Assembly: GCA_934045905.1 (NCBI GenBank)
Contig: OW203762.1
Location: 3,410,001-3,474,000, forward strand
Source: Leuctra nigra
Taxonomy: Eukaryota; Arthropoda; Insecta; Plecoptera; Leuctridae
Direction: 5' to 3'
Length of the DNA stretch: 64,000 nucleotides
The position numbers and the translations under genes are program-made. Below, one piece after another: positions 1 to 56,368 of this stretch; position 1 is the stretch's first letter; each line of letters opens with the position of its first letter. Under the pieces are notes generated by a model, which did not search any database, was not told the origin of the DNA, and was given only the letters and a program-made list of their open reading frames with translations.

Positions 1-41
1 AAAAGAAATAGTAGCAAAGCTGCCTGAGGGGCGTCCCGGAA

Positions 42-255
42 TAGCGTCATAAAGAATAAGGTCATATTCGTTGTGTGACAGGGTCTTTTCGCAAAAGAAA
101 TATGGTCATATGAAATATGACTTTCTTCCGATATGACTTTATTACTGCGGAATATTGTCACATCCAATATGACGTTATTCCGATTGAAATTCCGTCCAGT
201 TCGTTATGGAAATTCGGGGATTCCCAACTTGGAAATTCCCAATCGTTCTGTTGCC
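42..255 (-). mobile_element. Ty3/mag-like LTR retrotransposon debris (LTR-like)
   Basis: Positions 42-106 match 56364-56424, and 108-180 match 56880-56978, with small differences. In the second copy a gag-like reading frame on the minus strand lies between these two blocks and a primer-binding-like TGGCGACGAG follows, so both copies are read as pieces of one LTR retrotransposon. Here the internal part is deleted and the two blocks abut. The assignment depends on the second copy; nothing in this copy alone encodes protein. Confidence 0.5.
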
Positions 256-3016: not shown

Positions 3017-4984
3017 CACAAACTTGAAAACTTCCACGTTTTAAATGTGAGTAGTGATAATAATATCGAAGTCTTGCAAATAGAAGTAGCCGGTATTATT
3101 ATCGTGTCTGTGTATAAACCTCCTGCCATAGTATGGCCGTCTCCTCCTCTGCCGTCTCATCGTCATCCAGCTGTATACATAGGGGATTTCAATAGTCACC
3201 ATAATGCATGGGGATATGAGAGGAATGATGATAATGGGGAAACATTGATTGACTGGATGGAATACTCGGACCTCTTTCTTGTGTTTGATGCCAAGGACAA
3301 GGGCACATTTCATTCAGCACGTTGGCAAAGAGACTCGAACCCAGATTTATGTTTTGTCTCCACCGACAGTCTAGGCAGCCCATTACTGGTGTCACGAAAA
3401 ATACTCGAGAGCGTGCCAAGGAGTCAACACAGGCCTGTGCTTGTTACAGTTGGTCTTCAGATATCACTTGTAAATACCATCAAGAGACCCAGATGGAATT
3501 TTGAAAAGGCGGACTGGGTGACTTTCTCTGCTCAAGTTGATGCTAATGTACGATGGTTTCCACCAACTATAGATAATTATAGTAGGTTTGTCGGGGTCTT
3601 GATTGGTGCTGCTAAACGATGCATTCCACGAGGGTTTCGTGAAGAATATATCCCAGGATGGTCGCAAGATTCCGAGAAGCTGTTTCGTGACTATGAGTTG
3701 AACGGAGATCTGGAAATTGGACACAAGATACTACATTCTCTTGATTCATCCCGGAAAGAAAAATGGATATCAACTACTGAAAGTCTTGATTTCACGCACT
3801 CTAGCAGGAAAAGCTGGGCACTTCTTCGTCGTCTTGGATCGTCGACTACACCTGCGAAACATAACAACTCAATTGTTGGTCCGAATGACGTCGCTAATCG
3901 CATTCAGAAACTTTCGAAGAACGTTACTTTAGAGAGTTCTCTTGTAAGGAGAGTCAAAGCGGAACTAAGACATTTGAAGGCAACGAAAGACGACGAGGCT
4001 GTTCAGCCATTTAGAATGGAAGAGCTTGAAGTTGCGATCAAGAAATGTAAGCTCCGGAAAGCTGCTGGCTTTGACAATGTATTTCCCGAGTTCCTCGCAC
4101 ACTTAGGTAAAAGAGCTAAATCTTGGCTATTGTCACTTTATAATCTCATGCTTGAAGAAGGATCCATACCAACTGAATTCAACATTTCAAGAATAATAGC
4201 AATACTGAAACCTGGGAAATCTGCGGACGATGTTGCTAGTTACCGGCCAATTGCTTTGCTGAGCGTCTGCTACAAACTCCTAGAGAGGATTATTTACAAT
4301 AGAATCAATGTGGAGCTGAATCCAAGCATACCACCCGAGCAAGCAGGCTTTCGTGCTGGGCGCAGCTGTTGTGATCAAGTTCTGGCTCTAACGTCACATA
4401 TTGAGGCAGGTTTTCAAAAGAGGCTCAAGACGGCTGTGGCTTTCATAGATTTGTCGGCTGCATATGATACAGTTTGGAAACAAGGATTAATGGTGAAACT
4501 TCTTAGACTTAAGCCAGCTAATAAGTTAACGTCCTTGATCGAACAGCTGTTGAGCAATCGCAAATTTAGGGTTCAAATGGGAGGTAAAACAAGTCGAACA
4601 AGGTCAGTAAAGAATGGCTTGCCGCAGGGGTCAGTATTAGCACCATTACTATTCAACTTGTATACAAGTGACATGCCAGATACAAATGCCAGGAAGTTCG
4701 TATATGCCGATGACCTTGCTTTGGCAATTCAGGACCGTGATTTGGAAGCATGTGAAGATGTTCAAAGTTCGGATTTACGCATACTAGCTGAATATTATAG
4801 AAAGTGGCGACTCTGTCCAAATCCGACAAAAACGGAAGTTTCTGCTTTCCACTTAAACAATCAAGAAGCAAATCGTCAACTAAACGTGATATTCTGTGAC
4901 AAATTGGTGAAGCATAACTTCTTACCAACATATCTCGGGGTCCAGTTAGATCGTTCACTCACATTCAAGCAACATCTTGCTTGA
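3017..4984 (+). pseudogene. LINE ORF2, first part: partial endonuclease plus reverse transcriptase
   Basis: Open from the TAA at 3014-3016; a GTG at 3047 is only a nominal start. Residues are counted from 3047. The apurinic-type endonuclease is represented by YKPP at 23-26, GDFNSHHNAWG at 46-56 (catalytic Asp/Asn block), NPDLCFV at 98-104 and SQHRPV at 126-131; the N-terminal half, with the catalytic Glu, is missing. Reverse transcriptase follows with AFIDLSAAYD, GLPQGSVLAPLLFN and the catalytic YADD. The frame stops at a TGA (4982-4984) inside a 19-bp filler at the duplication junction. Downstream sequence stays in the same frame, so this TGA is the only stop between the two RT copies. As a protein it is presumed dead. 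Confidence 0.85.
3464..4977 (+). repeat. 1,514-bp tandem duplication in LINE, copy 1
   Basis: Matches 4997-6510 with an offset of 1,533 bp (511 codons), so the reading frame is kept. No difference was seen by eye, and the encoded peptides are identical. Copies are joined by a 19-bp filler at 4978-4996 that contains a short inverted repeat (TTGCTTGA / TCAAGCAA) and repeats TCAAGCAACAT from the end of copy 1. Confidence 0.92.
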
Positions 4985-7285
4985 ATCAAGCAACATTCAC
5001 TTGTAAATACCATCAAGAGACCCAGATGGAATTTTGAAAAGGCGGACTGGGTGACTTTCTCTGCTCAAGTTGATGCTAATGTACGATGGTTTCCACCAAC
5101 TATAGATAATTATAGTAGGTTTGTCGGGGTCTTGATTGGTGCTGCTAAACGATGCATTCCACGAGGGTTTCGTGAAGAATATATCCCAGGATGGTCGCAA
5201 GATTCCGAGAAGCTGTTTCGTGACTATGAGTTGAACGGAGATCTGGAAATTGGACACAAGATACTACATTCTCTTGATTCATCCCGGAAAGAAAAATGGA
5301 TATCAACTACTGAAAGTCTTGATTTCACGCACTCTAGCAGGAAAAGCTGGGCACTTCTTCGTCGTCTTGGATCGTCGACTACACCTGCGAAACATAACAA
5401 CTCAATTGTTGGTCCGAATGACGTCGCTAATCGCATTCAGAAACTTTCGAAGAACGTTACTTTAGAGAGTTCTCTTGTAAGGAGAGTCAAAGCGGAACTA
5501 AGACATTTGAAGGCAACGAAAGACGACGAGGCTGTTCAGCCATTTAGAATGGAAGAGCTTGAAGTTGCGATCAAGAAATGTAAGCTCCGGAAAGCTGCTG
5601 GCTTTGACAATGTATTTCCCGAGTTCCTCGCACACTTAGGTAAAAGAGCTAAATCTTGGCTATTGTCACTTTATAATCTCATGCTTGAAGAAGGATCCAT
5701 ACCAACTGAATTCAACATTTCAAGAATAATAGCAATACTGAAACCTGGGAAATCTGCGGACGATGTTGCTAGTTACCGGCCAATTGCTTTGCTGAGCGTC
5801 TGCTACAAACTCCTAGAGAGGATTATTTACAATAGAATCAATGTGGAGCTGAATCCAAGCATACCACCCGAGCAAGCAGGCTTTCGTGCTGGGCGCAGCT
5901 GTTGTGATCAAGTTCTGGCTCTAACGTCACATATTGAGGCAGGTTTTCAAAAGAGGCTCAAGACGGCTGTGGCTTTCATAGATTTGTCGGCTGCATATGA
6001 TACAGTTTGGAAACAAGGATTAATGGTGAAACTTCTTAGACTTAAGCCAGCTAATAAGTTAACGTCCTTGATCGAACAGCTGTTGAGCAATCGCAAATTT
6101 AGGGTTCAAATGGGAGGTAAAACAAGTCGAACAAGGTCAGTAAAGAATGGCTTGCCGCAGGGGTCAGTATTAGCACCATTACTATTCAACTTGTATACAA
6201 GTGACATGCCAGATACAAATGCCAGGAAGTTCGTATATGCCGATGACCTTGCTTTGGCAATTCAGGACCGTGATTTGGAAGCATGTGAAGATGTTCAAAG
6301 TTCGGATTTACGCATACTAGCTGAATATTATAGAAAGTGGCGACTCTGTCCAAATCCGACAAAAACGGAAGTTTCTGCTTTCCACTTAAACAATCAAGAA
6401 GCAAATCGTCAACTAAACGTGATATTCTGTGACAAATTGGTGAAGCATAACTTCTTACCAACATATCTCGGGGTCCAGTTAGATCGTTCACTCACATTCA
6501 AGCAACATCTAGAAAGAACGGGACAGAAATTGAAGACTAGGAATAACATCATCCGTAAGTTAGCTGGGACAACTTGGGGGAGCGATGCTGCCACGCTACG
6601 TACATCAGCTCTCGCTCTGGTGTACTCAGCAGCAGAGTATTGTGCTCCAGTGTGGCGCAATAGTGCTCACACTAACAAGGTGGATGTGCAGCTGAATACC
6701 TCCATGAGGATTGTTTCTGGGACGCTGAAGTCAACTCCCATTGCTTGGCTCTCCACGCTGTCAAACATTGCACCTCCTGATCTGAGGCGAACAGCGGCAG
6801 CAAAAAGAGAATGGCAGAAGTGCTTCAGGACCAACTGTGAAAAAGATCTACCAATACGTCTCGAATTAGACAACATCCCAATAAGTCGATTGAAGTCCCG
6901 CCATCCAATATGGGAGGACGCCATTCTCCTAGACGAAGAGAATACGAACACGGCATCAGCTTGGCGATCGTACTGGACTTTGCAGTCCGTTCATAATGGC
7001 GGACTTGTAGATGACCCAACTGAGTGGCCAAGTGGGTTCGATCTGCCTCGGAAGACATGGACTGCTCTGAATCGTCTGCGAACCGGCCATGCCAGATGCA
7101 ACTCCATGTTGTATAAATGGAAAATGGCAGCATCTCCAGCATGTGATTGCGGCGAAGAAGAGCAGACGACAGACCACATCGTAGACCATTGCCCAAGAAG
7201 AAGCTTTCCTGGGGGGTTGTTAGCACTGCAATCGTTGACCCCGCCAGCAGTTCAATGGCTGAATGACCTAGATATTAGTTTGTAG
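4985..7285 (+). pseudogene. LINE ORF2, second part: reverse transcriptase to C-terminus
   Basis: This is the same frame as the upstream segment, restarting after the junction TGA; the frame is open from 4985, with a nominal GTG at 5051. Residues are counted from 5051. RT motifs are FIDLSAAYD at 309-317, GLPQGSVLAPLLFN at 367-380 and FVYADD at 394-399, followed by the thumb region and a C-terminal zinc-knuckle-like CDCG...TTDHIVDHC at 698-714. Such Cys/His tails are usual in Jockey, I and RTE-like ORF2 proteins. The domain content is intact from RT to the end, but no endonuclease precedes it. The stretch to residue 487 repeats the upstream ORF without an amino-acid change that I can see. Confidence 0.85.
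4997..6510 (+). repeat. 1,514-bp tandem duplication in LINE, copy 2
   Basis: Second copy of the segment described at 3464-4977. After 6510 the LINE continues into its unique 3' part, which shows that copy 2 is contiguous with the original 3' half. Confidence 0.92.
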
Positions 7286-25850: not shown

Positions 25851-26239
25851 TGGTGAAAACCCTGGAACTAAAGTTGGGATTTTACGGGTTTTTTTGTTCA
25901 AGGAGCGGCTAAGGGGAAAAACAAGTATGAGTTGGTGAATACAAAAAAAAATACATCCATAAAATATGTTCATTTAGTCCCACCGTGGTCATGAGATATG
26001 ACAATTTCTTTGATTTGACCTCTAGAGGTCACAGCTGACCTCAGGGGCAAAAGCTCGAATGATATCATAGCTAAATCTTTTTTATATGTCCTGAGGAACA
26101 TCTCTACCAAATCTCATACTTTTATCACAAAATTCACAATCTTTCCTCTTAGCCGCTCTACTCTATGAGCATCGCGGAGATCAATTCTCAGATGAAACAG
26201 ATAGACCTATCTTGCCAAATATAAATACCGAGTAAAACT
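25851..26239. other. No gene recognised
   Basis: Unique-looking sequence up to the first 39-bp unit. No ORF or RNA gene supported. Confidence 0.4.
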
Positions 26240-27086
26240 GGGAAGCGAGCGCACACTTGGAATGTACCTGGTTGTGTTGGGAAGCGAGCGTACACTTGGA
26301 ATGCACCTGGTTGTGTTGGGAAGCGAGCGTACACTTGGAATGTACCTGGTTGTGTTGGGAAGCGAGCGTACACTTGGAATGTACCTGGTTGTGTTGGGAA
26401 GCGAGCGCACACTTGGAATGTACCTGGTTGTGTTGGGAAGCGAGCGTACACTTGGAATGTACCTGGTTGTGTTGGGAAGCGAGCGTACACTTGGAATGTA
26501 CCTGGTTGTGTTGGGAAGCGAGCGTACACTTGGAATGTACCTGGTTGTGTTGGGAAGCGAGCGCACACTTGGAATGTACCTGGTTGTGTTGGGAAGCGAG
26601 CGTACACTTGGAATGTACCTGGTTGTGTTGGGAAGCGAGCGTACACTTGGAATGTACCTGGTTGTGTTGGGAAGCGAGCGTACACTTGGAATGTACCTGG
26701 TTGTGTTGGGAAGCGAGCGTACACTTGGAATGTACCTGGTTGTGTTGGGAAGCGAGCGTACACTTGGAATGTACCTGGTTGTGTTGGGAAGCGAGCGTAC
26801 ACTTGGAATGCACCTGGTTGTGTTGGGACGCGAGCGTACACTTGGAATGTACCTGGTTGTGTTGGGAAGCGAGCGTACACTTGGAATGCACCTGGTTGTG
26901 TTGGGACGCGAGCGTACACTTGGAATGTACCTGGTTGTGTTGGGAAGCGAGCGTACACTTGGAATGTACCTGGTTGTGTTGGGAAGCGAGCGTACACTTA
27001 GAATGTACCTGGTTGTGTTGGGAAGCGAGCGTACACTTGGAATGTACCTGGTTGTGTTGCGAAGCGAGCGTACACTTGGAATGTAC
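26240..27086 (+). repeat. 39-bp minisatellite, left block (about 22 units)
   Basis: Unit: GGGAAGCGAGCGTACACTTG, then GAATGTACCTGGTTGTGTT. Variants include CACACTTG, GGGACGCGAG and ATGCACC. The block ends in a GTAC at 27083-27086, where a 6.5-kb element is inserted, and the array resumes in phase and in the same orientation at 33598. Long ORFs here are a product of the 3 x 13 period. Confidence 0.95.
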
Positions 27087-27088
27087 AC

Positions 27089-27527
27089 TCCCCCAAATAA
27101 TAAATGGTACTCCGTTTTGCGGCTATGTCCTTTCACCGTAAACAATTTTAATAGGTACCCTGTAGAGTGAGAGAGCGCGATAGTTGATGTGCGAGTGAGA
27201 AGAAAGATTGACGAGAGGTTGTCGGGCATCTATCTCACTAGTAGTCTTGTCTCGCTTGCACTTGGTACTAACTGGGGTGGTTCATGCCGAGTTGTTTTCT
27301 GGTGGAGTGGGGTGAGGTGAACTAAAATAGATAACGATGTCAATAACTGCTACCTGCAGAAGATCCTCGATTGATTCAATGCTCGAACTGTCCTCGCCGT
27401 GGTTTACCGTGAATGAATTACACTGATATTTCCAAAATGTTCGAATGTAGTATTTTCAAGGGTTTAATTTTATAGCTATTTGCATAATCATATTGTAATC
27501 GTTGAATGAACCTTTCTATTAGAATAA
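27089..27527 (+). repeat. Left terminal inverted repeat of the 6.5-kb element
   Basis: Near-perfect inverted copy of 33163-33597, with about one mismatch noticed (CTATTAGAAT against CTGTTAGAAT). A weaker extension of symmetry continues at 27560-27620 against 32590-32650 (CATAAACGACACAAAA and its partner). Confidence 0.88.
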
Positions 27528-33162: not shown

Positions 33163-33597
33163 TCTAACAGAAAGGTTCATTCAACGATTACAATATGATT
33201 ATGCAAATAGCTATAAAATTAAACCCTTGAAAATACTACATTCGAACATTTTGGAAATATCAGTGTAATTCATTCACGGTAAACCACGGCGAGGACAGTT
33301 CGAGCATTGAATCAATCGAGGATCTTCTGCAGGTAGCAGTTATTGACATCGTTATCTATTTTAGTTCACCTCACCCCACTCCACCAGAAAACAACTCGGC
33401 ATGAACCACCCCAGTTAGTACCAAGTGCAAGCGAGACAAGACTACTAGTGAGATAGATGCCCGACAACCTCTCGTCAATCTTTCTTCTCACTCGCACATC
33501 AACTATCGCGCTCTCTCACTCTACAGGGTACCTATTAAAATTGTTTACGGTGAAAGGACATAGCCGCAAAACGGAGTACCATTTATTATTTGGGGGA
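33163..33597 (-). repeat. Right terminal inverted repeat of the 6.5-kb element
   Basis: Inverted partner of 27089-27527. Ends CATTTATTATTTGGGGGA next to GTAC. Confidence 0.88.
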
Positions 33598-36500
33598 GTA
33601 CCTGGTTGTGTTGCGAAGCGAGCGTACACTTGGAATGTACCTGGTTGTGTTGGGAAGCGAGCGTACACTTGGAATGTACCTGGTTGTGTTGGGAAGCGAG
33701 CGTACACTTGGAATGTACCTGGTTGTGTTGGGAAGCGAGCGTACACTTGGAATGTACCTGGTTGTGTTGGGAAGCGAGCGTACGCTTGGAATGTACCTGG
33801 TTGTGTTGGGAAGCGAGCGTACACTTGGAATGTACCTGGTTGTGTTGGGAAGCAAGCGTACACTTGGAATGTACCTGGTTGTGTTGGGAAGCGAGCGTAC
33901 ACTTGGAATGCACCTGGTTGTGTTGGGAAGCGAGCGTACACTTGGAATGTACCTGGTTGTGTTGGGAAGCGAGCGTACACTTGGAATGTACCTGGTTGTG
34001 TTGGGAAGCGAGCGTACACTTGGAATGTACCTGGTTGTGTTGGGAAGCGAGCGTACACTTGGAATGCACCTGGTTGTGTTGGGAAGAGAGCGTACACTTG
34101 GAATGTACCTGGTTGTGTTGGGAAGCGAGCGTACACTTGGAATGTACCTGGTTGTGTTAGGAAGCGAGCGTACACTTGGAATGTACCTGGTTGTGTTGGG
34201 AAGCGAGCGTACACTTGGAATGTACCTGGTTGTGTTGGGAAGCGAGCGTACACTTGGAATGTACCTGGTTGTGTTGGGAAGCGAGCGTACACTTGGAATG
34301 CACCTGGTTGTGTTGGGACGCGAGCGTACACTTGGAATGTACCTGGTTGTGTTGGGAAGCGAGCGTACACTTGGAATGTACCTGGTTGTGTTGGGAAGCG
34401 AGCGTACACTTGGAATGCACCTGGTTGTGTTGGGACGCGAGCGTACACTTGGAATGTACCTGGTTGTGTTGGGAAGCGAGCGTACGCTTGGAATGTACCT
34501 GGTTGTGTTGGGAAGCGAGCGTACACTTGGAATGTACCTGGTTGTGTTGGGAAGCAAGCGTACACTTGGAATGTACCTGGTTGTGTTGGGAAGCGAGCGT
34601 ACACTTGGAATGCACCTGGTTGTGTTGGGAAGCGAGCGTACACTTGGAATGTACCTGGTTGTGTTGGGAAGCGAGCGTACACTTGGAATGTACCTGGTTG
34701 TGTTGGGAAGCGAGCGTACACTTGGAATGTACCTGGTTGTGTTGGGAAGCGAGCGTACACTTGGAATGCACCTGGTTGTGTTGGGAAGCGAGCGTACACT
34801 TGGAATGTACCTGGTTGTGTTGGGAAGCGAGCGTACACTTGGAATGTACCTGGTTGTGTTGGGAAGCGAGCGTACACTTGGAATGTACCTGGTTGTGTTG
34901 GGAAGCGAGCGTACACTTGGAATGTACCTGGTTGTGTTGGGAAGCGAGCGTACACTTGGAATGTACCTGGTTGTGTTGGGAAGCGAGCGTACACTTGGAA
35001 TGTACCTGGTTGTGTTGGGAAGCGAGCGTACACTTGGAATGTACCTGGTTGTGTTGGGAAGCGAGCGTACACTTGGAATGTACCTGGTTGTGCTGGGAAG
35101 CGAGCGTACGCTTGGAATGTACCTGGTTGTGTTGGGAAGCGAGCGTACACTTGGAATGTACCTGGTTGTGTTGCGAAGCGAGCGTGCACTTGGAATGCAC
35201 CTGGTTGTGTTGGGAAGCGAGCGTACACTTGGAATGCACCTGGTTGTGTTGGGAAGCGAGCGTACACATTTGGAATGTACCTGGTTGTGTTGGGAAGCGA
35301 GCGTACACTTGGAATGTACCTAGTTGTGTTGGGAAGCGAGCGTACACTTGGAATGTACCTGGTTGTGATGGGAAGCGAGCGTACACTTGGAATGTACCTG
35401 GTTGTGATGGGAAGCGAGCGTACACTTGGAATGTACCTGGTTGTGTTGGGAAGCGAGCGTACACTTGGAATGTACCTGGTTGTGTTGGGAAGCGAGCGTA
35501 CACTTGGAATGTACCTGGTTGTGTTGGGAAGCGAGCGTACACTTGGAATGTACCTGGTTGTGTTGGGAAGCGAGCGTACACTTGGAATGTACCTGGTTGT
35601 GTTGGGAAGCGAGCGTACACTTGGAATGCACCTGGTTGTGTTGGGACGCGAGCGTACACTTGGAATGTACCTGGTTGTGTTGGGAAGCGAGCGTCCACTT
35701 GGAATGTACCTGGTTGTGTTGGGAAGCGAGCGTACACTTGGAATGTACCTGGTTGTGTTGGGAAGCGAGCGTGCACTTGGAATGTACCTGGTTGTGTTGG
35801 GAAGCGAGCGTACACTTGGAATGTACCTGGTTGTGTTGGGAAGCGAGCGTACACTTGGAATGTACCTGGTTGTGTTGGGAAGCGAGCGTACACTTAAATG
35901 TACCTGGTTGTGTTGGGAAGCTTGCGTACACTTGGAATGTACCTGGTTGTGTTGGGAAGCGAGCGTACACTTGGAATGTACCTGGTTGTGTTGGGAATCG
36001 AGCGTACACTTGGAATGTACCTGGTTGTGTTGGGAAGCGAGCGTACGCTTGGAATGTACCTGGTTGTGTTGGGAAGCGAGCGTACACTTGGAATGTACCT
36101 GGTTGTGTTGGGAAGCGAGCGTACACTTGGAATGTACCTGGTTGTGTTGGGAAGCGAGCGTACACTTGGAATGTACCTGGTTGTGTTGGGAAGCGAGCGT
36201 ACACTTGGAATGTACCTGGTTGTGTTGGGAAGCGAGCGTACACTTGGAATGTACCTGGTTGTGTTGGGAATCGAGCGTACACTTGGAATGTACCTGGTTG
36301 TGTTGGGAAGCGAGCGTTCGCTTGGAATGTACCTGGTTGTGTTGGGAAGCGAGCGTACACTTGGAATGTACCTGGTTGTGTTGGGAAGCGAGCGTTCGCT
36401 TGGAATGTACCTGGTTGTGTTGGGAAGCGAGCGTACACTTGGAATGTACCTGGTTGTGTTGGGAAGCGAGCGTACGCTTGGAATGTACCTGGTTGTGTTG

Positions 36501-36836
36501 GGAAGCGAGCGTACACTTGGAATGTACCTGGTTGTGTTGGGAAGCGAGCGTACACTTGGAATGCACCTGGTTGTGTTGGGAAGCGAGCGTACACTTGGAA
36601 TGTACCTGGTTGTGTTGGGAAGCGAGCGTACACTTGGAATGTACCTGGTTGTGTTGGGAAGCGAGCGTACACTTGGAATGTACCTGGTTGTGTTGGGAAG
36701 CGAGCGTACACTTGGAATGTACCTGGTTGTGTTGGGAAGCGAGCGTACACTTGGAATGTACCTGGTTGTGTTGGGAAGCGAGCGTACACTTGGAATGTAC
36801 CTGGTTGTGTTGGGAAGCGAGCGTACACTTGGAAAT
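33598..36836 (+). repeat. 39-bp minisatellite, right block (about 83 units)
   Basis: Continues the left block in phase. Higher-order structure is visible: the variant series starting with TACGCTTGG at 33781 recurs at 34483, exactly 18 units (702 bp) later, and GGGAATCGAGCG near 35995 recurs near 36268, seven units later. Two single-base-register changes (near 35266 and 35894) shift the false ORFs. Ends at GGAAATACCTGC near 36836. Confidence 0.96.
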
Positions 36837-36899
36837 ACCTGCTATTGTTCCGTTTGGTTTCAAGTAAAAAGCAACGGACATTCCTGAAGCTAGAAAACA

Positions 36900-37020
36900 A
36901 GAGAGCAATGGTTCAGGCAGTGAAGCTCTGGACTCGCAGGCGAAGACCCAGGTTCGATTCCCGCGTAATAGATGCGAGAATCTTTCACACAAGAACCTGT
37001 TAGAATGGCCACCCTAACTT
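36900..37020 (+). mobile_element. tRNA-derived SINE head
   Basis: Box A-like TGGTTCAGGCAGTGAAGC followed by box B GGTTCGATTCC at 36953-36963 with tRNA-like spacing. The downstream body is short and differs from the 38.6-kb SINE family. A functional tRNA is unlikely, as no acceptor stem pairing was found. Confidence 0.5.
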
Positions 37021-37084
37021 AACTAGTGCATGAATGTGTGTTGTTACTTGTGTTGTCTAAGTGAATCTAAAAAGAAATCTAAGT

Positions 37085-38535
37085 GTCCGGGTAGATTTCG
37101 GTAATCTGTCCGTCGGTAAAGTTCCCCCCCCTGCTTTTCGGTAATGTGTCCGTCGGTAAACTGTCCCCCCCTGCTTTTCGGTAATGTGTCCGTCGGTAAA
37201 GTGTCCCCCCCTGCTTTTCGGTAATGTGTACGTCGGTAAAGTGTCCCCCCTGCTTTTCGGTAATGTGTCCGTTGGTAAACTGTCCCCCCCTGCTTTTCGG
37301 TAATGTGTCCGTCGGTAAACTTCCCCCCCTGCTTTTCGGTAATGTGTCCGTCGGTAAAGTGTCCCCCTCTGCTTTTCGGTAATGTGTACGTCGGTAAAGT
37401 GTCCCCCCTGCTTTTCGGTAATGTGTCCGTTTGTAAACTGTCCCCCCCTGCTTTTCGGTAATGTGTCCGTCGGTAAACTATCCCCCCCTGCTTTTCGGTA
37501 ATGTGTCCGTCGGTAAAGTGTCCCCCCTGCTTTTCGGTAATGTGTACGTCGGTAAAGTGTCCCCCCCTGCTTTTCGGTAATGTGTACGTCGGTAAAGTGT
37601 CCTCCTGCTTTTCGGTAATGTGTCCGTTGGTAAACTGTCCCCCCATGCTTTTCGGTAATGTGTCCGTCGGTAAACTGTCCCCCCTGCTTTTCGGTAATGT
37701 GTACGTCGGTAAACTATCCCCCCCTGCTTTTCGGTAATGTGTCCGTCGGTAAAGTGTCCCCTCCTGCTTTTCGGTCATGTGTACGTCGGTAAAGTGTCCC
37801 CCCTCCCTGTTTTTCGGTAATGTGTCCGTCGGTAAACTGTCCCCCCCTGCTTTTCGGTAATGTGTCCGTCGGTAAACTGTCCCCCCTGCTATTCACTAAT
37901 GTGTCCGTCGATAAACTGTCCCCCCCTGCTTTTCGGTAATGTGTCCGTCGGTAAAGTGTCCCCCCCTGCTTTTCGGTAATGTGTCCGTCGGTAAACTGTC
38001 CCCCCCTGCTTTTCGGTAATGTGTCCGTCGGTAAAGTTTCCCCCCCTGCTTTTCGGTAATGTGTCCGTCCGTAAAGTGTCCCCCCCTGCTTCTCGGTAAT
38101 GTGTCCGTCGGTAAAGTGTCCCCCTCTGCTTTTCGGTAATGTGTACGTCGGTAAAGTGTCCCCCCCTGCTTTTCGGTAATGTGTCCGTCGGTCAAGTGTC
38201 CCCCCCTGCTTTTCGGTAATGTGTCCGTCGGTAAAGTTTCCCCCCCTGCTTTTCGGTAATGTGTCCGTCGGTAAACTGTCCCCCCCTGCTTTTCGGTAAT
38301 GTGTCCGTCGGTAAACTGTCCCCCTCTGCTTTTGGTAATGTGTCCGTCGGTAAAGTGTCCCCTACGCTTTTCGGTAATGTGTCTGTCGGTAAACTGTCCC
38401 CCCCTGCTTTTCGGTAATGTGTACGTCGGTAAAGTGTCCCCCCCCTGCTTTTCGGTAATGTCCCCGACGGTAAAGTGTCCCCCCCTGCTTTTCGGTAATG
38501 TGTCCGTCGGTAAACTGTCCGTCGGTAAACTACCC
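37085..38535. repeat. 40-bp minisatellite with poly-C, about 36 units
   Basis: Unit: GGTAATGTGTCCGTCGGTAA, then A(C/G)TGTCCCCCCCTGCTTTTC. The C run varies from about 4 to 8, and GTCC/GTAC and AAACTG/AAAGTG variants alternate. Length changes in the C run shift frame, so false ORFs are shorter than in the 39-bp array. Confidence 0.95.
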
Positions 38536-48085: not shown

Positions 48086-48384
48086 AATTGCTATTGTAAC
48101 AATACAATAGTATTTAGCATTGTGTTTTATTCAGACTGCGTTTCTATTTCTGTTTAATAGAAACTTTGGTCTTGAATCTGCTTCGTAATATCACACATTT
48201 ATCAGGACATTCGCTTGCTAATGTGGCTGATGTGTTGCATTTTAATACTGCATGGGATTCAGTCCGCAGTACGAAAACTCAATTGAAATAGTTGAATTCA
48301 ATGTTTCTGAATACGAAGAAAGTTTCATTGTGACAAGAAACTAACTCCAGGGATTTAGTTTGCATCTCATTGAGTCGCAGGAAT

Positions 48385-48396
48385 TCGCGTTTAAAA
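48385..48396 (+). repeat. Left terminal inverted repeat of ISL2EU-type element
   Basis: TCGCGTTTAAAA, preceded by target AT. Its exact inverse is at 56355-56366. Confidence 0.82.
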
Positions 48397-48493
48397 GCAA
48401 AGGAGTCGACACCTGGTGGCCGTTTTGTCAACTAAACCACCTAGGATAAAAGTCGCCCGTTCGTTTGTTTACATGCAGTTTTCATAGCGTAAA

Positions 48494-50690
48494 ATGGAGA
48501 TAAATTCTGTAATTTTACCAATTAAAAGAAAAGCAGTAAAGGCAAATCGATACTGCAGTGTTCCACAGTGCTCGAACAAAGAATCCACCGCTGCAGAGGG
48601 ACTGTCATTTCATTTATTTCCGAAAAACGCTGTGCGGCAGAAACAATGGGCTACTGTTTTGAAGATTGGGAAGAGTGTCTCCAAATGCATGATGGTGTGT
48701 GGAGAACACTTCAAAGCAGAGGACTTCTTTTACTCTCGTAAGAACTTTATTATATTGTTAGATATATCTGAATAAAGTTCATAAAATGTCAATCAATCAA
48801 ATTACACAGCAGCTATCTAGGTAGTTTAAGTTTGCATTTTTTAGGCTAGATACCTCCTACCTATACCTACAGATTTGTAATTCAAGTGTTTTCATTTGAT
48901 AGATCCACTAGCTCCTGCAGGACTTAAAAGAAAGAGACTGAAGTTGACAGCTATACCATCGTCCAAGCTACCTGTTAGAACGCATGACCGCGTCATACCT
49001 GCAAGAGCAATGGCCAAGGTGAACCGAGCTGTCCGGCTTCAAGAAAGGACGCATGCAAAAACAATATTGGATCGGAGGTAAGATAATTATATTACTACGT
49101 TAGGTAACATTAGGTTTGAACGTCAAGCTGTTAGATAAGCTCAGAGCCGTTCCGAGCAAGCTCAACGAACAGGGCTACGGTGAAAACCCGTCTTCCATTG
49201 TCGCGACATCGCACCGATGATGATTGTCATCCTGTTTGCAATCACTTGCGTCTTTGCTTGCGTTGTTTGTTGAGTTTGTGCGGAACTGACAAACACAATG
49301 TTCAGTGTTCACAATGGTTGTTCAGCTGTTCCAAGCTGCATGGAACAGTTCTGAGCAGCCGGACAAACAAATCAAATCTTGTGACTTCCATGAACTTGTT
49401 GCCGCGGCAGAGCGTTACAATATTTTGGAACGAACCTAACGAAATATATTTTGTATGAAAATTGGGAATAAATAAAAATCTAAAATTGAATGTTGGTAGT
49501 ACATAAATTCTCTGTTATTATACAATAGCAATTATAAAAAAGTGGAAAGTGAACAATAAAATGTTTGTTTTCAATTGAATTCTCAAATCTTTTGTGTTTG
49601 TTATAGTGAATGCCAAGACGACAATTGTGGGGTGGACCCGCCAGCTGAAGAGGTCTTAAATGCTGCTGAAGCATTGATGGAACTTCAAAATGCTGTTCCT
49701 GTTCACTGCGAGGAGCGAATGCAACCTGAAGAAGATGAGCGGAAACAGGTGGACTTCGGAATGCAGACCACACCCAAGAAACAGAGGAACAAGACTGAAA
49801 AATGCACTCTAATTAATCTCCTTCATACTGATGCTGACTTGAATGCATTCACGGGCATTACAAGTTTTGAATTTCTCGAGGGTATTTCTCAGGCTGCCGA
49901 GCTGTTAGAAGCACCTGTAACAGACAATAAACTTCAACTTGACCTCACTGAGAGGATCATTCTTACAATGGTAAAATTAAAATTGAATGTTAGCTTTACT
50001 TGTATTTCCGTTTTATTTGGTATTTCTATAACAACTTGCATCAGTTATTTTCATTTAACTTTAAACTTGCTAGGCAGCCTAATGGAAGTAGCTGTCATTT
50101 GGCCTTCCAAAGATGATATTGTAAAGAATATGCCACATTGTTTTAAGAAATTCAAAGACACGCGGGTCGTGCTCGACTGCACAGAGATTGCTGTGGAGAA
50201 ACCCGCATGTCTAAAATGTCGTCTCAGTACGTATTCTCACTACAAAGGGTGCAACACAATCAAGTTTTTGATTGGTGTTGCACCTGAAGGTTTAATAACT
50301 TTTTGTAGTGAGGCGTATGGAGGCCGGGCATCAGACAAGGCAATTTTCCTCCAGTCAGGCATGATTGGCTGGTTAATACCTCATGTGGACGCAATCATGT
50401 CTGACAAGGGATTCCTTGTGGAAAATGAATGTGTGATGAACGGCATCAAACTGATTCGACCACCTTTCCTTGGAAAGAGAGGGCAGATGTCCAAAGGAGA
50501 TGGTTTGCTAACAGCTGACATAGCCCAAGCTAGAGTCCATGTTGAACGGGCTATTCAGCGGATCAAGGTGTTCAAAATTTTCAAACATCAGTTGCCTTGG
50601 AACCTTGTTTCATGTGTTGATAACATTATGACCGTTATTGTTGGATTAGTAAATCTGTCTGCGCCTATATTGGCACCGGACAAGTTCTAA
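48494..50690 (+). CDS. THAP-domain DDE transposase (ISL2EU/DDE_Tnp_4 type), three exons
   Basis: Predicted exons 48494-48737, 48903-49077 and 49607-50690 join to 500 residues. Both introns start GTAAGA and end AG, and phases 1 and 2 match. The start ATG sits in AAAATGG. Residues 20-80 form a THAP zinc finger (C21, C26, C69, H72, with W52 and P43), and its AVPS-like tail AIPS follows in exon 2; this domain should bind the element ends. Residues about 251-295 are the helix-turn-helix of the Tnp_4 family. Residues 325-465 are the DDE nuclease: D330 in VLDCTE, D406 in MSDKGF and E453 in ARVHVERAIQRIK, all present. It would act in the nucleus to excise and insert the element. An AATAAA lies at about 50875. 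The convergent partner gene encodes a YqaJ nuclease. Family assignment is firm at domain level; splice sites are inferred by eye. Confidence 0.88.
49081..49606 (+). other. Second intron of the transposase gene
   Basis: GTAAGATAAT donor at 49078 and TTGTTATAG acceptor ending 49606. It contains partial repeat phrases (GTTCCAAGCTGCATGGAACA, an inverted repeat) but no supported gene. Confidence 0.6.
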
Positions 50691-50814
50691 AAGACTTTGC
50701 ATGGCTAGGGAAGCTTTGAAGCACCCATCTAGTGGGAGAGGCCCGAACTAAGTGACGCGGTGAGATTAAATTTAGTCTTGTTTTTTTGTATTTCCTCCTC
50801 GTTCTTCATAGTAC

Positions 50815-51930
50815 AATTTGATCTAGTAAAATCAGATCTTCCCGAACAAATGTAATTTCTTGTATTTTTGATACAATAAAAATTAATCAAATCTAAGTCG
50901 CAAGAAAATGTTCTTTTAATAAGTACCTAGGTACTATCACTACAATGCCTAGTAAAATCATATTTCTCCAACCATCAATTGTTAAAAATATTTTAATTCA
51001 ATAAAAATACACTTCAGTCCAAGTTGCAAGAAAATCTTTATTTATAATTCTCACAACTGCACAGCTTAGTAAATTAATATCTGTTCAACTATCAATATTT
51101 TCCGATTCAATAAAAAATACAATGTATCAGATCAGTCCAGGTTGACAGAAAATGTTTACCTAATAATTATCACAACTGCACAGATTAGTAAATTAGTATC
51201 TGTCCAACTATCAATATTTTCCGATTCAATAAAAAATACAATATATCAGATCAGTCCAGGTTGACAGAAAATGTTTACCTAATAATTATCACAACTGCAC
51301 AGATTACTAGTAAATTAATATCTGTCCAACTATCAATATTTTCCGATTCAATAAAAAATACAATCATCAGATCAGTCCACGTAGACAGAAAATGTTTACC
51401 TAATAATTATCACAACTGCACAGATTAGTAAATTAATATCTGTCCAACTATCAATATATTCCGATTCAATAAAAAATACAATCATCAGATCAGTCTACGT
51501 AGACAGAAAATGTTTACCTAATAATTATCACAACTGCACAGATTAGTAAATTAATATCTGTCCAACTATCAATATTTTCCGATTCAATAAAAAATACAAT
51601 CATCAGATCAGTCCACGTAGACAGAAAATGTTTACCTAATAATTATCACAACTGCACAGATTAGTAAATTAATATCTGTCCAACTATCAATATTTTCCGA
51701 TTCAATAAAAAATACAATCATCAGATCAGTCCACGTAGACAGAAAATGTTTACCTAATAATTATCACAACTGCACAGATTAGTAAATTAATATCTTTCCA
51801 AACATCAATTAGGTACATGACAAATGTAATAATTTTTTTAGTTTTGATTTAAAAAAATACTTTTCAATTCAGGTTGTAGAGAATTATACATTTAATTCTC
51901 ATAACTGCACACCTCAAGCCAATTCTTTCC
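50815..51930 (+). repeat. 118-bp tandem array carrying AATAAA, between convergent genes
   Basis: Seven well-homogenised units (period 118 bp, for example CAATCATCAG at 51361, 51479, 51597 and 51715), with diverged units at both edges from about 50815 and to about 51930. Each unit includes GATTCAATAAAAAATACAAT, so a plus-strand poly(A) signal is repeated downstream of the transposase stop. Old edges and a uniform centre fit unequal exchange. Confidence 0.9.
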
Positions 51931-52059
51931 AACCACTAAGTATATAAAAGCATGTTATTGTTCTATCCTGCAATCCATTTAAACAGGTTGCTTTACATAA
52001 TATAATTAATCGGTAACGGTAACACAATTCTGAACTAATGGTAAGTCTTCACAGAAGGT

Positions 52060-53050
52060 AACGCTCTATGCTATTGTCATTGTCTTGCTGGCAAGGATAC
52101 AGTGAGGACTGGCAGATTGACCAGCACATTGAATGCTGGTGTTGATTGTGTGGCTGTTCATAATCTCTTGCCAAACTGCGGCACCAAAACGGGTCGCCTC
52201 TGCATGCATGAATAAAACATCCCTGCCCCGTATGGAACTAGGACATATCGTCATCCCCAGGTATCACCTCCGCTAAATTATGAGCTTCTGCCCCCGTGTA
52301 ACTTGGACCGCAACGGCAACGCATCACAATCCTGGACATTATCACGTACCCCGTAGTTTCCACTGCGTCGCCGAGTAGGACTTTCCGACACCACCTGAGG
52401 GAGGATTACTGTGGCAGTTCATCATCTCCCGCCGAACTGTGGCCACCAAGACGGTGGCGCCAGGTGGAGAACCGCCGAATTAGACCGAAGGATGAAGAAG
52501 CTTCTTGATAAACTGGAGAACACGCCTGAGATACACCAGAGTGCAGCCGACCATTGCCACTGACAGACGAGTAGTGTGTGCTAGTTACCCTGTCTTTACC
52601 GCGTTTGTATACATTGCCGCCAATCATCATCTACGAGTTACTTGTTTGATGAGTGTTTGATACTTGTTGAACAACAAGAACAAGTCTGGATGTGTCCTTC
52701 TTGGTGAAGTCGTCATACTCCAGCACGGTTCGTTCCCGCATTTGAGGTGCAGTGGACAGATGGTACAGTAGTTGCGCTAATAATCCCTGGGTAATCCCAG
52801 GGTTCAGTCCATACTCTATGAAAAGACATCGAGCCGTGGATTTCAGCTCCTCACTAATCCCTATCATCGCCGCCCATCTTGATCAAACGCTTCATGTGCT
52901 GTTGGGTGCCTCCGCAGAATATGTAATATACTTTATTGAAGAGGTCAGGGTCCAGACGACCTTTGACTATATTAAATGGCAACCTAATTCTAAAACATTG
53001 CATGAAAGGTGCAAGTAAAAATTTACACAAATTATCACAGATCACAAAAA
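52060..53050 (-). other. Coding-like minus-strand segments inside the ISL2EU element, unrecognised
   Basis: Several minus-strand frames look protein-like. One runs from about 53045 to 52854, starting after a TGTTTTAG acceptor-like site, and includes IVKGRLDPDLFNKVYYIFCG and THMKRL-like text. An overlapping frame, 52867-52631, includes EYGLNPGITQGLLAQLLYHL. Frames switch at about 52860 and 52630, so the segment is decayed or spliced in a way I cannot resolve. No family recognised. It lies 3' of the YqaJ exon in the same orientation and might be a read-through exon or a captured gene piece. Confidence 0.3.
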
Positions 53051-53101
53051 ATTAAATATACCTTAGTGAAACAAATAATGTCTCCTATAGCTGCACGTAA
53101 A

Positions 53102-56100
53102 TTATTGGCACATTCGATTAGCATTGACAGTGATAAATGGTAACATTGTTTTGAAATACATTGTACGAAGTGTACAAATCATTTCCCTAGCGAAATCTTC
53201 ATCGTATGGGACTTGTACAATCAGATTTTCGTCGCTACACTTGGAGTACAATAGGAAGTCACAGGTATGTAACCCAGTTACAAGCATTCCCATTTGGACT
53301 TGACCATAGTATTTATGTTTTCTTTTGAGAGTAACATTCTCTTCACTCACATTCAAGCACGTAGCAGCCCTAGCCAAATCTAATCCACTCAGAGTTTTAC
53401 CTGCTTGCAAACATTTGACTTCAATTAATCGACCAAGCTCAGAAACAAAACCATCGGGGCTATATCCAAGCCAAGGCGCAAGAGGATTGATTATAATGCC
53501 TGCTTTGGTGATGGTATAATTCGTCTGCCGTACGTAAGCATTAAGGGCAATGGGCTCGTTCACTAACCCGTAGGATGTGTGTGCATTGCCGGAAAATGTA
53601 TTAAACACTAAATTAGACATTTTATTTTCCCAGTTACGAGGAGTGGTACTGGGTTTACAATAAGTGTAAATTTCATAGCATTTGCTGCCAGTAATTCGCG
53701 GCTTTCTGACCCTCATCCAATGGTCACCAACTTGTGCAGATGTTTCATAGCAAATCAATGTAGCCCGGTCAACGTCAACGTCGACATATTTGCTATCAAA
53801 AGAAATCTCCTCCTGTGTGCAGCACTTCAAAGCATCTTTGTCCAACTCGGGGGAAGATTGAAGTACAGTGGAGGTAGACGACACAAGTTCTCTGATGAAT
53901 TGCTGGTTCTGGTTGTAGTTATTAGTCTCTGCATAGATGTTGTTGGTACTTGTCGAAGTTGACAGAATGTCCTCTTCTGCTGTCCGTCTCAAATCGTGCA
54001 TAGCGATGGCACAGCCTGGTTTTGTAGCTGTAAAAGATAATTTATTTCAATCTTAAAGCAATCTATTTAAATTGTAATTAGTGATCTCACATTTGTGTTA
54101 TGTCAGAACTATCCTGGACCAATGAGCCAGATGGCTCATCCATTATCATTCATCATCTATCATAATTCAGATGGCAGAATGCATCATCCAGAAAACAAAA
54201 TTATGTGTATAATTAAAATTACAGACAATACATAACAATATCAAAATTTACGTCAATACAGTCTTCAACATCGACCATAAGATCGCCAAGCTCCTGGGAA
54301 GCGCCAAGGACAAAATCTACCTCGAGCAGAGAGACGTTTACGAGATCCCCTGCTCTGACTGCAGCCGCACCTACATTGGCCAGACCATTGGCATCTACAT
54401 TGGCATTCTACATTGGTAGATGTCAACGCGGCGGAAGGAGCACCAGAGAGTCGTCAGGTGGATAGACAGCACATCGTCCCTCGCCCAGCACGTTGAAGAC
54501 ACAGGACACGTCATCGACTTCCAGGCAATGAAGCCTCCGCACCCGGCAACCGGAAATGAAGCGCACCTTAAGCCGACGGAGCCTCCACCACGTATCCGTA
54601 GCAAGGTGTGCAAGACACTGAATGACAAGAACATCAATCCATCGCAATTTCCAGCTCTGCGATTGGCGCTCCGCTCTGGACCAACCAAAATGTACACCTT
54701 CGGGAGCAGGCATAAATTTACGAGCCGAGAATGACACAAGAGCTACAGTCGCCAGCTGAAGAAGAGGGCAGTAACAGCCCTCGAAACGTCGCAAACGCAT
54801 CCACAGGAACAAGATCGAATATGACTGCTCTGCATCTACATGTTCTGACAACTAACCTACATGACTTCAAAATTTATTTCTTTGTCAATTGAATAAAATC
54901 ATAATAATACCTACCTATTCCTTCTGAAATTATTGTTAAGCTTATATTCTCGACAGAGCCAAAGCATCACTAGTGAGAATGTAGGTAATACAGAGAAGGG
55001 AGGAGAGGAAACCTGGTACTGATGTTTAGCCTATTCCTGACGAAAGATACCAAGGGGGACAACGTCTCAACGTCCCATGGTGATAGATTTACAGCAAGGT
55101 CGAGGGACTGATAACAGGTGGTGGGAGGTCGTCACACTAACCCCCAACCACCCCAGTCTCTCTGGCCCAACGGCATGCAACTGGTAAGCCGAGTTTAATG
55201 GTCACCCATCCAACTACAAACCACGCTCAATGTTGCTTAAATCCTCTGATTTTACGAGTACCATGGTACTATCCAATACACCAGCTTTTGGGTTAATCCA
55301 GTCAAGGTTTTTGAACACTACTCCTCCCACACATTCCTAGGTTCAATCCATCTTTAGTCGTTAATCTGAAACTTCATCTGCATTGCTCTCTGTCAATTTA
55401 CAACTATTTGTTAGCAGAATATGAAGGTAGGAAGGAATGTAATCTTGACAATGAGCATGTGCAATGGAAATAGAGTAGGTAGATTGTGTAGGTAGTAGGT
55501 ACCTATGTACTTACAGTTCAGCATAATGTCCAGTAACATTGCCTTCAATGGATCCGTTTTCTGTCGTGGTAGATATCGACCACCATACGGCAATGGTCTC
55601 GAAGTGGTGTGGCAGAATTGTCTGGCGGGTTTTGCATGGTATATATCCTTTGCTTTTGTTTTTATTTTACCCCACTGCTGTGTTATTTCAGTGCAGCTGA
55701 GGTCCTCAATCATCTCGATTGATTGTCTGAAATATAACAAAGTACCTAGGTTATAGGTAAATAATAATGCACAGACGGTGTAGGATACTAAATGACAATT
55801 CCCACAAAATACTTCGACACAGAAAAAGAACACATACCTGCTCAAATACAGCAATACTGCGACCACGTGTTTGCAATGGCCAGAACCTGCCTTGCAGGAG
55901 CAGGTTCCTTCAATTCTCATTTCACTATTTTCACTTCTGTCTACAATAACATTCACCTCGTGTGGTTTCCCATCTAATTTGGAGGTTTGTAGACACAGAG
56001 CAAGATAGTGAATTTTATTACCAACTTCTTTAATGGTGCCACATTCCATTAAATGTTTGGCTTTTAATATAGCCTCCCCTTCCACGAATGGCCTTTGGAA

Positions 56101-56151
56101 ATGGCCAACATACTCTACTATATCACTCATATTAACAGCTGGCTCAAACAT
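53102..56151 (-). CDS. SWIM zinc finger/YqaJ-type exonuclease of ISL2EU element, three exons
   Basis: Predicted exons 56151-55838, 55726-55515 and 54027-53102 on the minus strand join to 483 residues. Donors are AG/GTATGT and CT/GTAAGT; acceptors TTTCAG and TTTACAG; phases 2 and 1 match. Residues 84-95 form a SWIM zinc finger (C84, C86, C93, H95), a DNA- or protein-binding module. Residues 275-470 are a YqaJ/lambda-exonuclease domain with YGLVNEP (E333), YSPDGF (D367), LIEVKC (E378, K380) and YGQVQMGM (Q418), the catalytic set of the PD-(D/E)XK-like fold. Lambda exonuclease relatives degrade one strand from double-strand ends, so a role in processing or copying the element after excision is conceivable; this is inference. 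It converges with the THAP/DDE gene. The last intron is 1.5 kb and contains retroelement debris. Confidence 0.85.
54250..54830 (+). pseudogene. Penelope-like element GIY-YIG endonuclease fragment
   Basis: On the plus strand the frame reads KIAKLLGSAKDKIYLEQRD, then VYEIPCSDCSRTYIGQTIG, a stop and frame change near 54417, then RRKEHQRVVRWIDSTSSLAQ and HVEDTGHVIDFQAMK. VYxIPCxxC..YIGQT, R-x-x-EH and the S-x-x-xHxxxTGH block are the GIY-YIG endonuclease signature of Penelope-like retroelements. The reverse transcriptase is missing. The 3' tail GAAGAAGAGGGCAGTAACAG and CCTCGAAACGTCGC is also typical. It lies in the last intron of the minus-strand YqaJ gene, opposite in orientation. An internal stop and truncation make it dead. 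Confidence 0.82.
55190..55290 (-). mobile_element. 5S rRNA-derived SINE or 5S pseudogene
   Basis: On the minus strand the sequence reads like the inner part of eukaryotic 5S rRNA. On the plus strand GGTCACCCATCCAACTACAA, then ACCACGCTCAATGTTGCTTA, corresponds to the 5S complement GGTCTCCCATCC...TACTAACCAGGC..GACGCTGCTTA with substitutions. GTAC repeats follow. Flanking GC-rich text on the 3' side may be the SINE body. It lies in the last YqaJ intron. It is too diverged to be a working 5S gene. Confidence 0.55.
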
Positions 56152-56354
56152 GATTTAACAACTTTAGAAACTAAACTTACAATATTTACTAACTACAACT
56201 ACAAAAACTAACTAATCTCACATAATTCGCACTAAAAATCACTAAATAAAGCAAAAACTATTCTAATCTATTAGCCGCTCTAACCTGCAAACACTACATC
56301 TGTCCTAGTCAAGCGACCATTTTGAAAAAGCTACAGTGCTGCCATCTAACCAGG

Positions 56355-56366
56355 TTTTAAACGCGA
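56355..56366 (-). repeat. Right terminal inverted repeat of ISL2EU-type element
   Basis: TTTTAAACGCGA, followed by target AT. It abuts LTR-retrotransposon debris that the element apparently inserted into. Confidence 0.82.
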
Positions 56367-56368
56367 AT

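Follow-up and report, generated by a model that had tools for sequence, protein, structure and literature searches.

A two-gene ISL2EU-type DNA transposon in Leuctra nigra and the possible role of its YqaJ nuclease

Introduction

Why should a cut-and-paste DNA transposon carry a gene for a lambda-exonuclease-like nuclease? The question is raised by a locus of Leuctra nigra (Insecta; Plecoptera) within a stretch of 64,000 nucleotides (assembly GCA_934045905.1, contig OW203762.1, positions 3,410,001 to 3,474,000 of the forward strand), which we call the window and to which coordinates without a prefix refer. A first-pass annotation, made from the letters alone, had described positions 48385-56366 as an apparently intact ISL2EU-type transposon with exact 12-bp terminal inverted repeats, an AT target duplication and two convergent multi-exon genes, one for a THAP/DDE transposase and one for a SWIM/YqaJ nuclease, and had suggested that the copy is young and possibly active. 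Our analysis indicates that this segment is very probably an autonomous, recently transposed DNA transposon of the ISL2EU group (PHIS superfamily), a degree of confidence that covers its identity and mobility only. The element is a good new example of an already known animal transposon type.

Ends, target site and recent movement

The element is 7982 bp long and spans exactly 48385-56366. Exact 12-bp inverted repeats were found at the ends that had been proposed (Table 1), and an AT adjoins each of them on the outer side. AT is self-complementary, so two structures would leave identical ends: 12-bp repeats plus an AT duplication, or 14-bp repeats and no duplication. The right flank starts with 58 bases of a host repeat, and a search with them, in which 40 of 46 candidates were scored, gave 34 short flank matches. 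Six paralogous empty sites were read from these (all five of the loci fetched, and window 41-97) and each carries a single AT. All six read GGAATAGCGTCAT, where the filled site reads GGAAT, then the element, then ATAGCGTCAT. The match on the left-hand side is 13 bases in two empty sites (L083 and L087), 11 in another (L085) and five, GGAAT only, in the remainder (L084, L086 and window 41-97); its shortness reflects the start of the host repeat at this point. The single AT shows that the duplication is AT, as had been claimed, and that the element is 7982 bp. Insertion in the manner of Spy, without duplication and with 14-bp repeats, was considered and rejected on the same ground.

The assembly (536 Mb) contains 198 occurrences of the 14-mer ATTCGCGTTTAAAA, which joins the end to the AT, compared with 11 of a backwards control, so the ends are more than chance. 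Among the retrieved loci, CGCGTTTAAA is found at 20 distinct places. These were chosen by the motif, which leaves diverged ends outside the sample; [A/T]ATT precedes all of them, AT is present in 20/20 with the same start base after it, and the base before AT is A in seven and T in 13.

A second full copy of 8221 bp lies on another contig (C10:23489829-23498049) and has its termini at the same bases. It differs from the window copy by six mismatches and three indels (1, 118 and 120 bp), the 118-bp indel being one unit of the intergenic tandem array. Its flanking DNA is different and has an AT pair of its own, which shows that the family moved recently. The proposed youth of the element is thus borne out by a near-identical copy at a different site with both genes open, and the only other full copy has the ends that had been predicted for it; different ends were not seen. 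Judged from sequence, it is possible that the element is active. The C10 insertion (L033) adjoins an inverted repeat, CAAGGTGTCTAT / ATAGACACCTTG.

Older, broken copies are also present. In one (C11:500720-505930) the main pieces are 91-94% identical and the right end is kept, and in another (from C13:44817178 onward) the main pieces are 83-96% identical. Many relatives of about 71-83% identity retain about 409 bp (409-412) on the left, where the THAP exon lies, together with part of the final 93 bp; as 40 of 258 candidates were scored, their total is at least the number listed. P elements encode repressors, and we considered whether the short relatives might be THAP-only repressors. This was rejected. 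When the THAP exon was checked at 19 loci, 17 matched, and 15 of the 17 matches have a frameshift or stop; in L040 the centre is out of frame and L030 has the second half only.

The two genes and their products

The genes are convergent, with three exons each and intact frames, and all four introns (two per gene) are GT-AG. The nearest named proteins come from arthropods (scorpion, wasps, beetles, aphid and ticks). The predicted spliced transposase is an open frame of 500 aa with Pfam matches to PF05485 (THAP), PF13613 (HTH_Tnp_4) and PF13359 (DDE_Tnp_4), all over the cut-off. Its catalytic triad D330/D406/E453 is where the first reading had placed it, and the triad, D-75-D-46-E, is retained in 28, 29 and 29 of 29 aligned transposases (the window sequence and 28 that we picked from 120 listed homologues). 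Alignments to several single-chain homologues cover 97% of the spliced protein, the sequence being variable around its junctions, and insertions in two older copies fall inside intron 2.

The predicted spliced nuclease is an open frame of 483 aa. At its first junction nine of the ten homologues shown align without a gap, and P0013 has a deletion there. The match to YqaJ (PF09588) scores 60.3 bits against a cut-off of 22. The residues E333, D367, E378, K380 and Q418, likewise at the positions first assigned to them, are retained in 38, 38, 38, 38 and 35 of 38 database proteins. In all 54 nuclease rows, which hold the window sequence twice (also as L053) and some loci that are near-identical copies, they are retained in 54, 54, 53, 54 and 48; each genome locus among these rows was represented by its longest frame containing P-D/E-G, a choice that favours a conserved D. 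The sole exception at E378 is L055 (D), and those at Q418 are four gaps and two K. The C, C, C and H of the SWIM-like motif are retained in 15/17, 12/15, 13/16 and 12/17 database homologues having a residue there. A Pfam search of this second protein gave YqaJ and SWIM, and none of the matches listed to a limit of E 1 was to Myb.

A structure model of the nuclease (pLDDT 90.5) matches lambda exonuclease and LHK-Exo (PDB 1avq, 3syy). In the model the nuclease domain adopts the lambda-exonuclease fold, with its active site complete, and resembles these enzymes in both respects; they are phage or bacterial proteins, whereas the window nuclease is in a eukaryote transposon and has a SWIM-like part added.

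Table 1. Features of the element (window coordinates)
Feature	Position	Strand	Basis or detail
Left AT of target site duplication	48383..48384		One-AT empty sites
Left terminal inverted repeat, TCGCGTTTAAAA	48385..48396	+	12 bp
Transposase exon 1 (bulk of the THAP zinc finger, with C2CH pattern)	48494..48737	+	Pfam, alignment
Transposase exon 2	48903..49077	+	Spliced frame, alignment
Transposase exon 3 (HTH_Tnp_4, DDE_Tnp_4; D330, D406, E453)	49607..50690	+	Stop 50688-50690
Intergenic array of 118-bp tandem repeats	51014..51809		6.7 copies; 7.7 in the C10 copy
Nuclease exon 3 (YqaJ / lambda-exonuclease domain; E333, D367, E378, K380, Q418)	53102..54027	-	Pfam, alignment, structure model
Fragment in nuclease intron 2	54250..54790	+	One diverged match elsewhere (71%)
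Dispersed repeat of about 370 bp nested in nuclease intron 2	54929..55297		Shared by both full copies
Nuclease exon 2	55515..55726	-	Spliced frame, alignment
Nuclease exon 1 (SWIM-like CxC...CxH motif)	55838..56151	-	Start codon 56151-56149
Right terminal inverted repeat	56355..56366	-	Exact reverse complement of TCGCGTTTAAAA
Right AT of target site duplication	56367..56368		One-AT empty sites

The two genes as one unit

Six-frame searches of the genome gave 121 nuclease and 106 transposase clusters, merged from 129 and 114 hits; 129/216 nuclease and 113/170 transposase candidates were scored, so these counts are lower bounds. A transposase lies within 6 kb of 67 nuclease clusters, where 0.29 neighbouring pairs would be expected at random, and 66 of the 67 pairs are convergent. 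The genes also co-diverge: across seven representative elements the pairwise distances of transposase and nuclease are correlated (r 0.89, a value reached by 6/5040 permutations). The coupling of the two genes, which had been proposed, is therefore upheld. The ratio dN/dS is 0.085 for the transposase and 0.16 for the nuclease in the only pair with unsaturated silent sites, the other 20 of the 21 element pairs being saturated for both genes.

Among the unpaired nuclease loci, 18 (e.g. C1:4325088-4325444) have an identical score, the same length and 34% identity over residues 148-264. They were checked by eye against the transposase matches and none is near by. This suggests a single non-autonomous family of short derivatives carrying part of a YqaJ gene.

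The genome also holds a second ISL2EU family, with four copies on C8 (two), C12 and C4 that are about 99.8% identical over the 6.0 kb read. For two copies the ends were read; these copies measure about 6.19 kb and terminate in TCGTACAAACAAGG and CTTATTTGCACGA. These ends, TCGTAC/TCGTGC, show that TCG ends recur in the clade. In the C8 copy that was read, each side carries AT; in the C4 copy, GT lies on the left and a single T on the right before the next copy, with no AT pair shown. At C4:14731060-14741050 (L077, L090, L091) this copy is followed head to tail by the start of the next, possibly a tandem insertion or a circle-derived dimer.

Comparison with known transposons

The ISL2EU group is described by an AT duplication, a THAP/HTH/DDE transposase and a YqaJ second gene (Han et al., 2015; PMC4482050). 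The window element has all of these, which agrees with the class first assigned to it, and its 12-bp repeats are within the range of 6-259 bp given for the group (PMC4482050). It differs from the usual ISL2EU element in two ways and may differ in a third. The ends of the window element and of the sister family begin with TC, whereas GG is the usual, although not universal, pair of first bases; its length of 7982 bp compares with a mean of about 4840 bp; and the motif-selected ends of the window family are flanked by W-AT-W, which may depart from a strict A-AT-T target (PMC4482050).

Spy is similar in belonging to a sister group of DDE transposases and in its AT-rich target (PMC4482050; PMC11304231), but is described as having a single gene, with neither a nuclease nor a target duplication (PMC4482050), where the window element has two genes and an AT duplication. 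PIF/Harbinger elements share a related DDE transposase and the presence of a second gene (PMC4482050; PMC2836001). They have a 3-bp TWA duplication and a Myb-like second protein, in contrast with the 2-bp AT and YqaJ protein found here; according to Han et al. ISL2EU has a YqaJ gene where PIF/Harbinger has its Myb-like one, and what second genes do in the PHIS superfamily was stated to be unknown in 2015 (PMC4482050). KolobokE, of a different transposon lineage, likewise carries a lambda-exonuclease-like nuclease, which is encoded downstream of the transposase domain of a Kolobok transposase (PMC9587614).

Possible roles of the nuclease

By analogy with their families, the THAP and HTH regions would bind the element ends, the DDE domain would cut the element out, and insertion would take place at W-AT-W with duplication of the AT. 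The nuclease might then degrade the 5' strands at the excision break and leave 3' overhangs; these would steer repair of the donor site to a sister copy, by which the element would be regained at that site. Such 5'-3' resection at the excision break, taken alone, is the role that we prefer, although we hold it tentatively and think it more apt to be wrong than right. The fuller proposal, that the nuclease is an end-resection enzyme owned by the transposon, so that donor repair by homologous copying turns cut-and-paste into a net gain of copies, is slightly more doubtful. If true, it would provide a eukaryotic transposon counterpart of phage recombination exonucleases. No test of an ISL2EU nuclease was found in the titles and abstract starts listed by searches of the open-licence literature. 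We would rank the roles in the order resection, Myb-like helper, and then direct end processing together with cargo or counter-defence.

Several observations weigh against our interpretation of the locus. No second recombination gene, for instance one for an annealing protein, was found in the two proteins scanned; other open frames of the element of at least 80 aa were not all scanned. The SWIM match (19.2) is just below the Pfam cut-off (19.6). No partner lies within 6 kb of 54 of the 121 nuclease clusters and 39 of the 106 transposase clusters. The two full copies differ by three amino acids (transposase G394S; nuclease I133M and D253Y), which may mean that at least one is impaired; position 394 is variable among aligned transposase homologues. 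Finally, Spy, whose sole gene is for a transposase (PMC4482050), has active transposases (PMC11304231), which means that this kind of chemistry does not in general depend on a nuclease.

It is rather unlikely, in our estimate, that the nuclease replaces the Myb-like partner of PIF/Harbinger, acting in end binding or in nuclear entry of the transposase, perhaps through its SWIM-like part, with catalysis secondary. The second protein of PIF/Harbinger is required for both of these functions (PMC2836001), the YqaJ gene occupies the corresponding place in ISL2EU (PMC4482050) and the SWIM-like C, C, C and H are mostly kept among database proteins. However, the transposase has a THAP domain of its own, and the E, D, E and K kept in 38/38 database relatives would be needless for a purely structural role.

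Two further roles seem improbable, and equally so. The nuclease could trim the ends of the element, or its flanks, at the cutting or joining stage, as a direct step of transposition, which would fit its co-inheritance and conserved catalytic residues; against this, the ends of both full copies are exact and each copy is flanked by an AT pair, the duplication at the window insertion is exactly 2 bp, and PIF/Harbinger and Spy are described without such a gene (PMC4482050). Alternatively, it could be a passenger or counter-defence gene acting on host or invading DNA and not on the element. YqaJ-type nucleases are common in viruses (77 viral models match the nuclease at E<=0.001) and the 54 unpaired nuclease clusters are consistent with such a role, but the fixed convergent position and the parallel divergence point to a partner and not to swappable cargo. 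That the genes belong to unrelated elements which are adjacent by accident deserves almost no weight: each has matches in this genome that lack the other as a neighbour, but the same exact ends enclose both in two independent insertions, the second full copy thereby already refuting this reading, and the 66 convergent pairs far exceed random expectation.

With two near-identical open full copies, exact ends, a defined duplication and many short relatives that share those ends, the family is a natural system for testing the resection role and its alternatives, and the sister family offers a replicate.

Other features of the element and the window

Both insertions in nuclease intron 2 are common to the two full copies, which shows that the element has moved with them; together with the tandem array they help explain its large size. 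The fragment at 54250-54790 resembles what we take to be the 3' end of a Penelope-like element, a tentative label, with no Pfam hit. A captured gene or separate repeat at 52040-52990 was considered and rejected, as matches were found in the two full copies only by a search that passes over very common words, and the region looks family-specific. The 120-bp indel lies at 52379-52380, where the C10 copy has sequence that is absent from the window copy; matches to the surrounding region were confined to these two copies.

Elsewhere in the window, 3017-7282 holds two open frames side by side, both of which encode a reverse-transcriptase domain. The endonuclease domain of the first frame marks them as non-LTR, and they are apparently two elements or a tandem. 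Long tandem-repeat-like stretches at 26184-27229, 33457-37013 and 37047-38534 are open in several frames.
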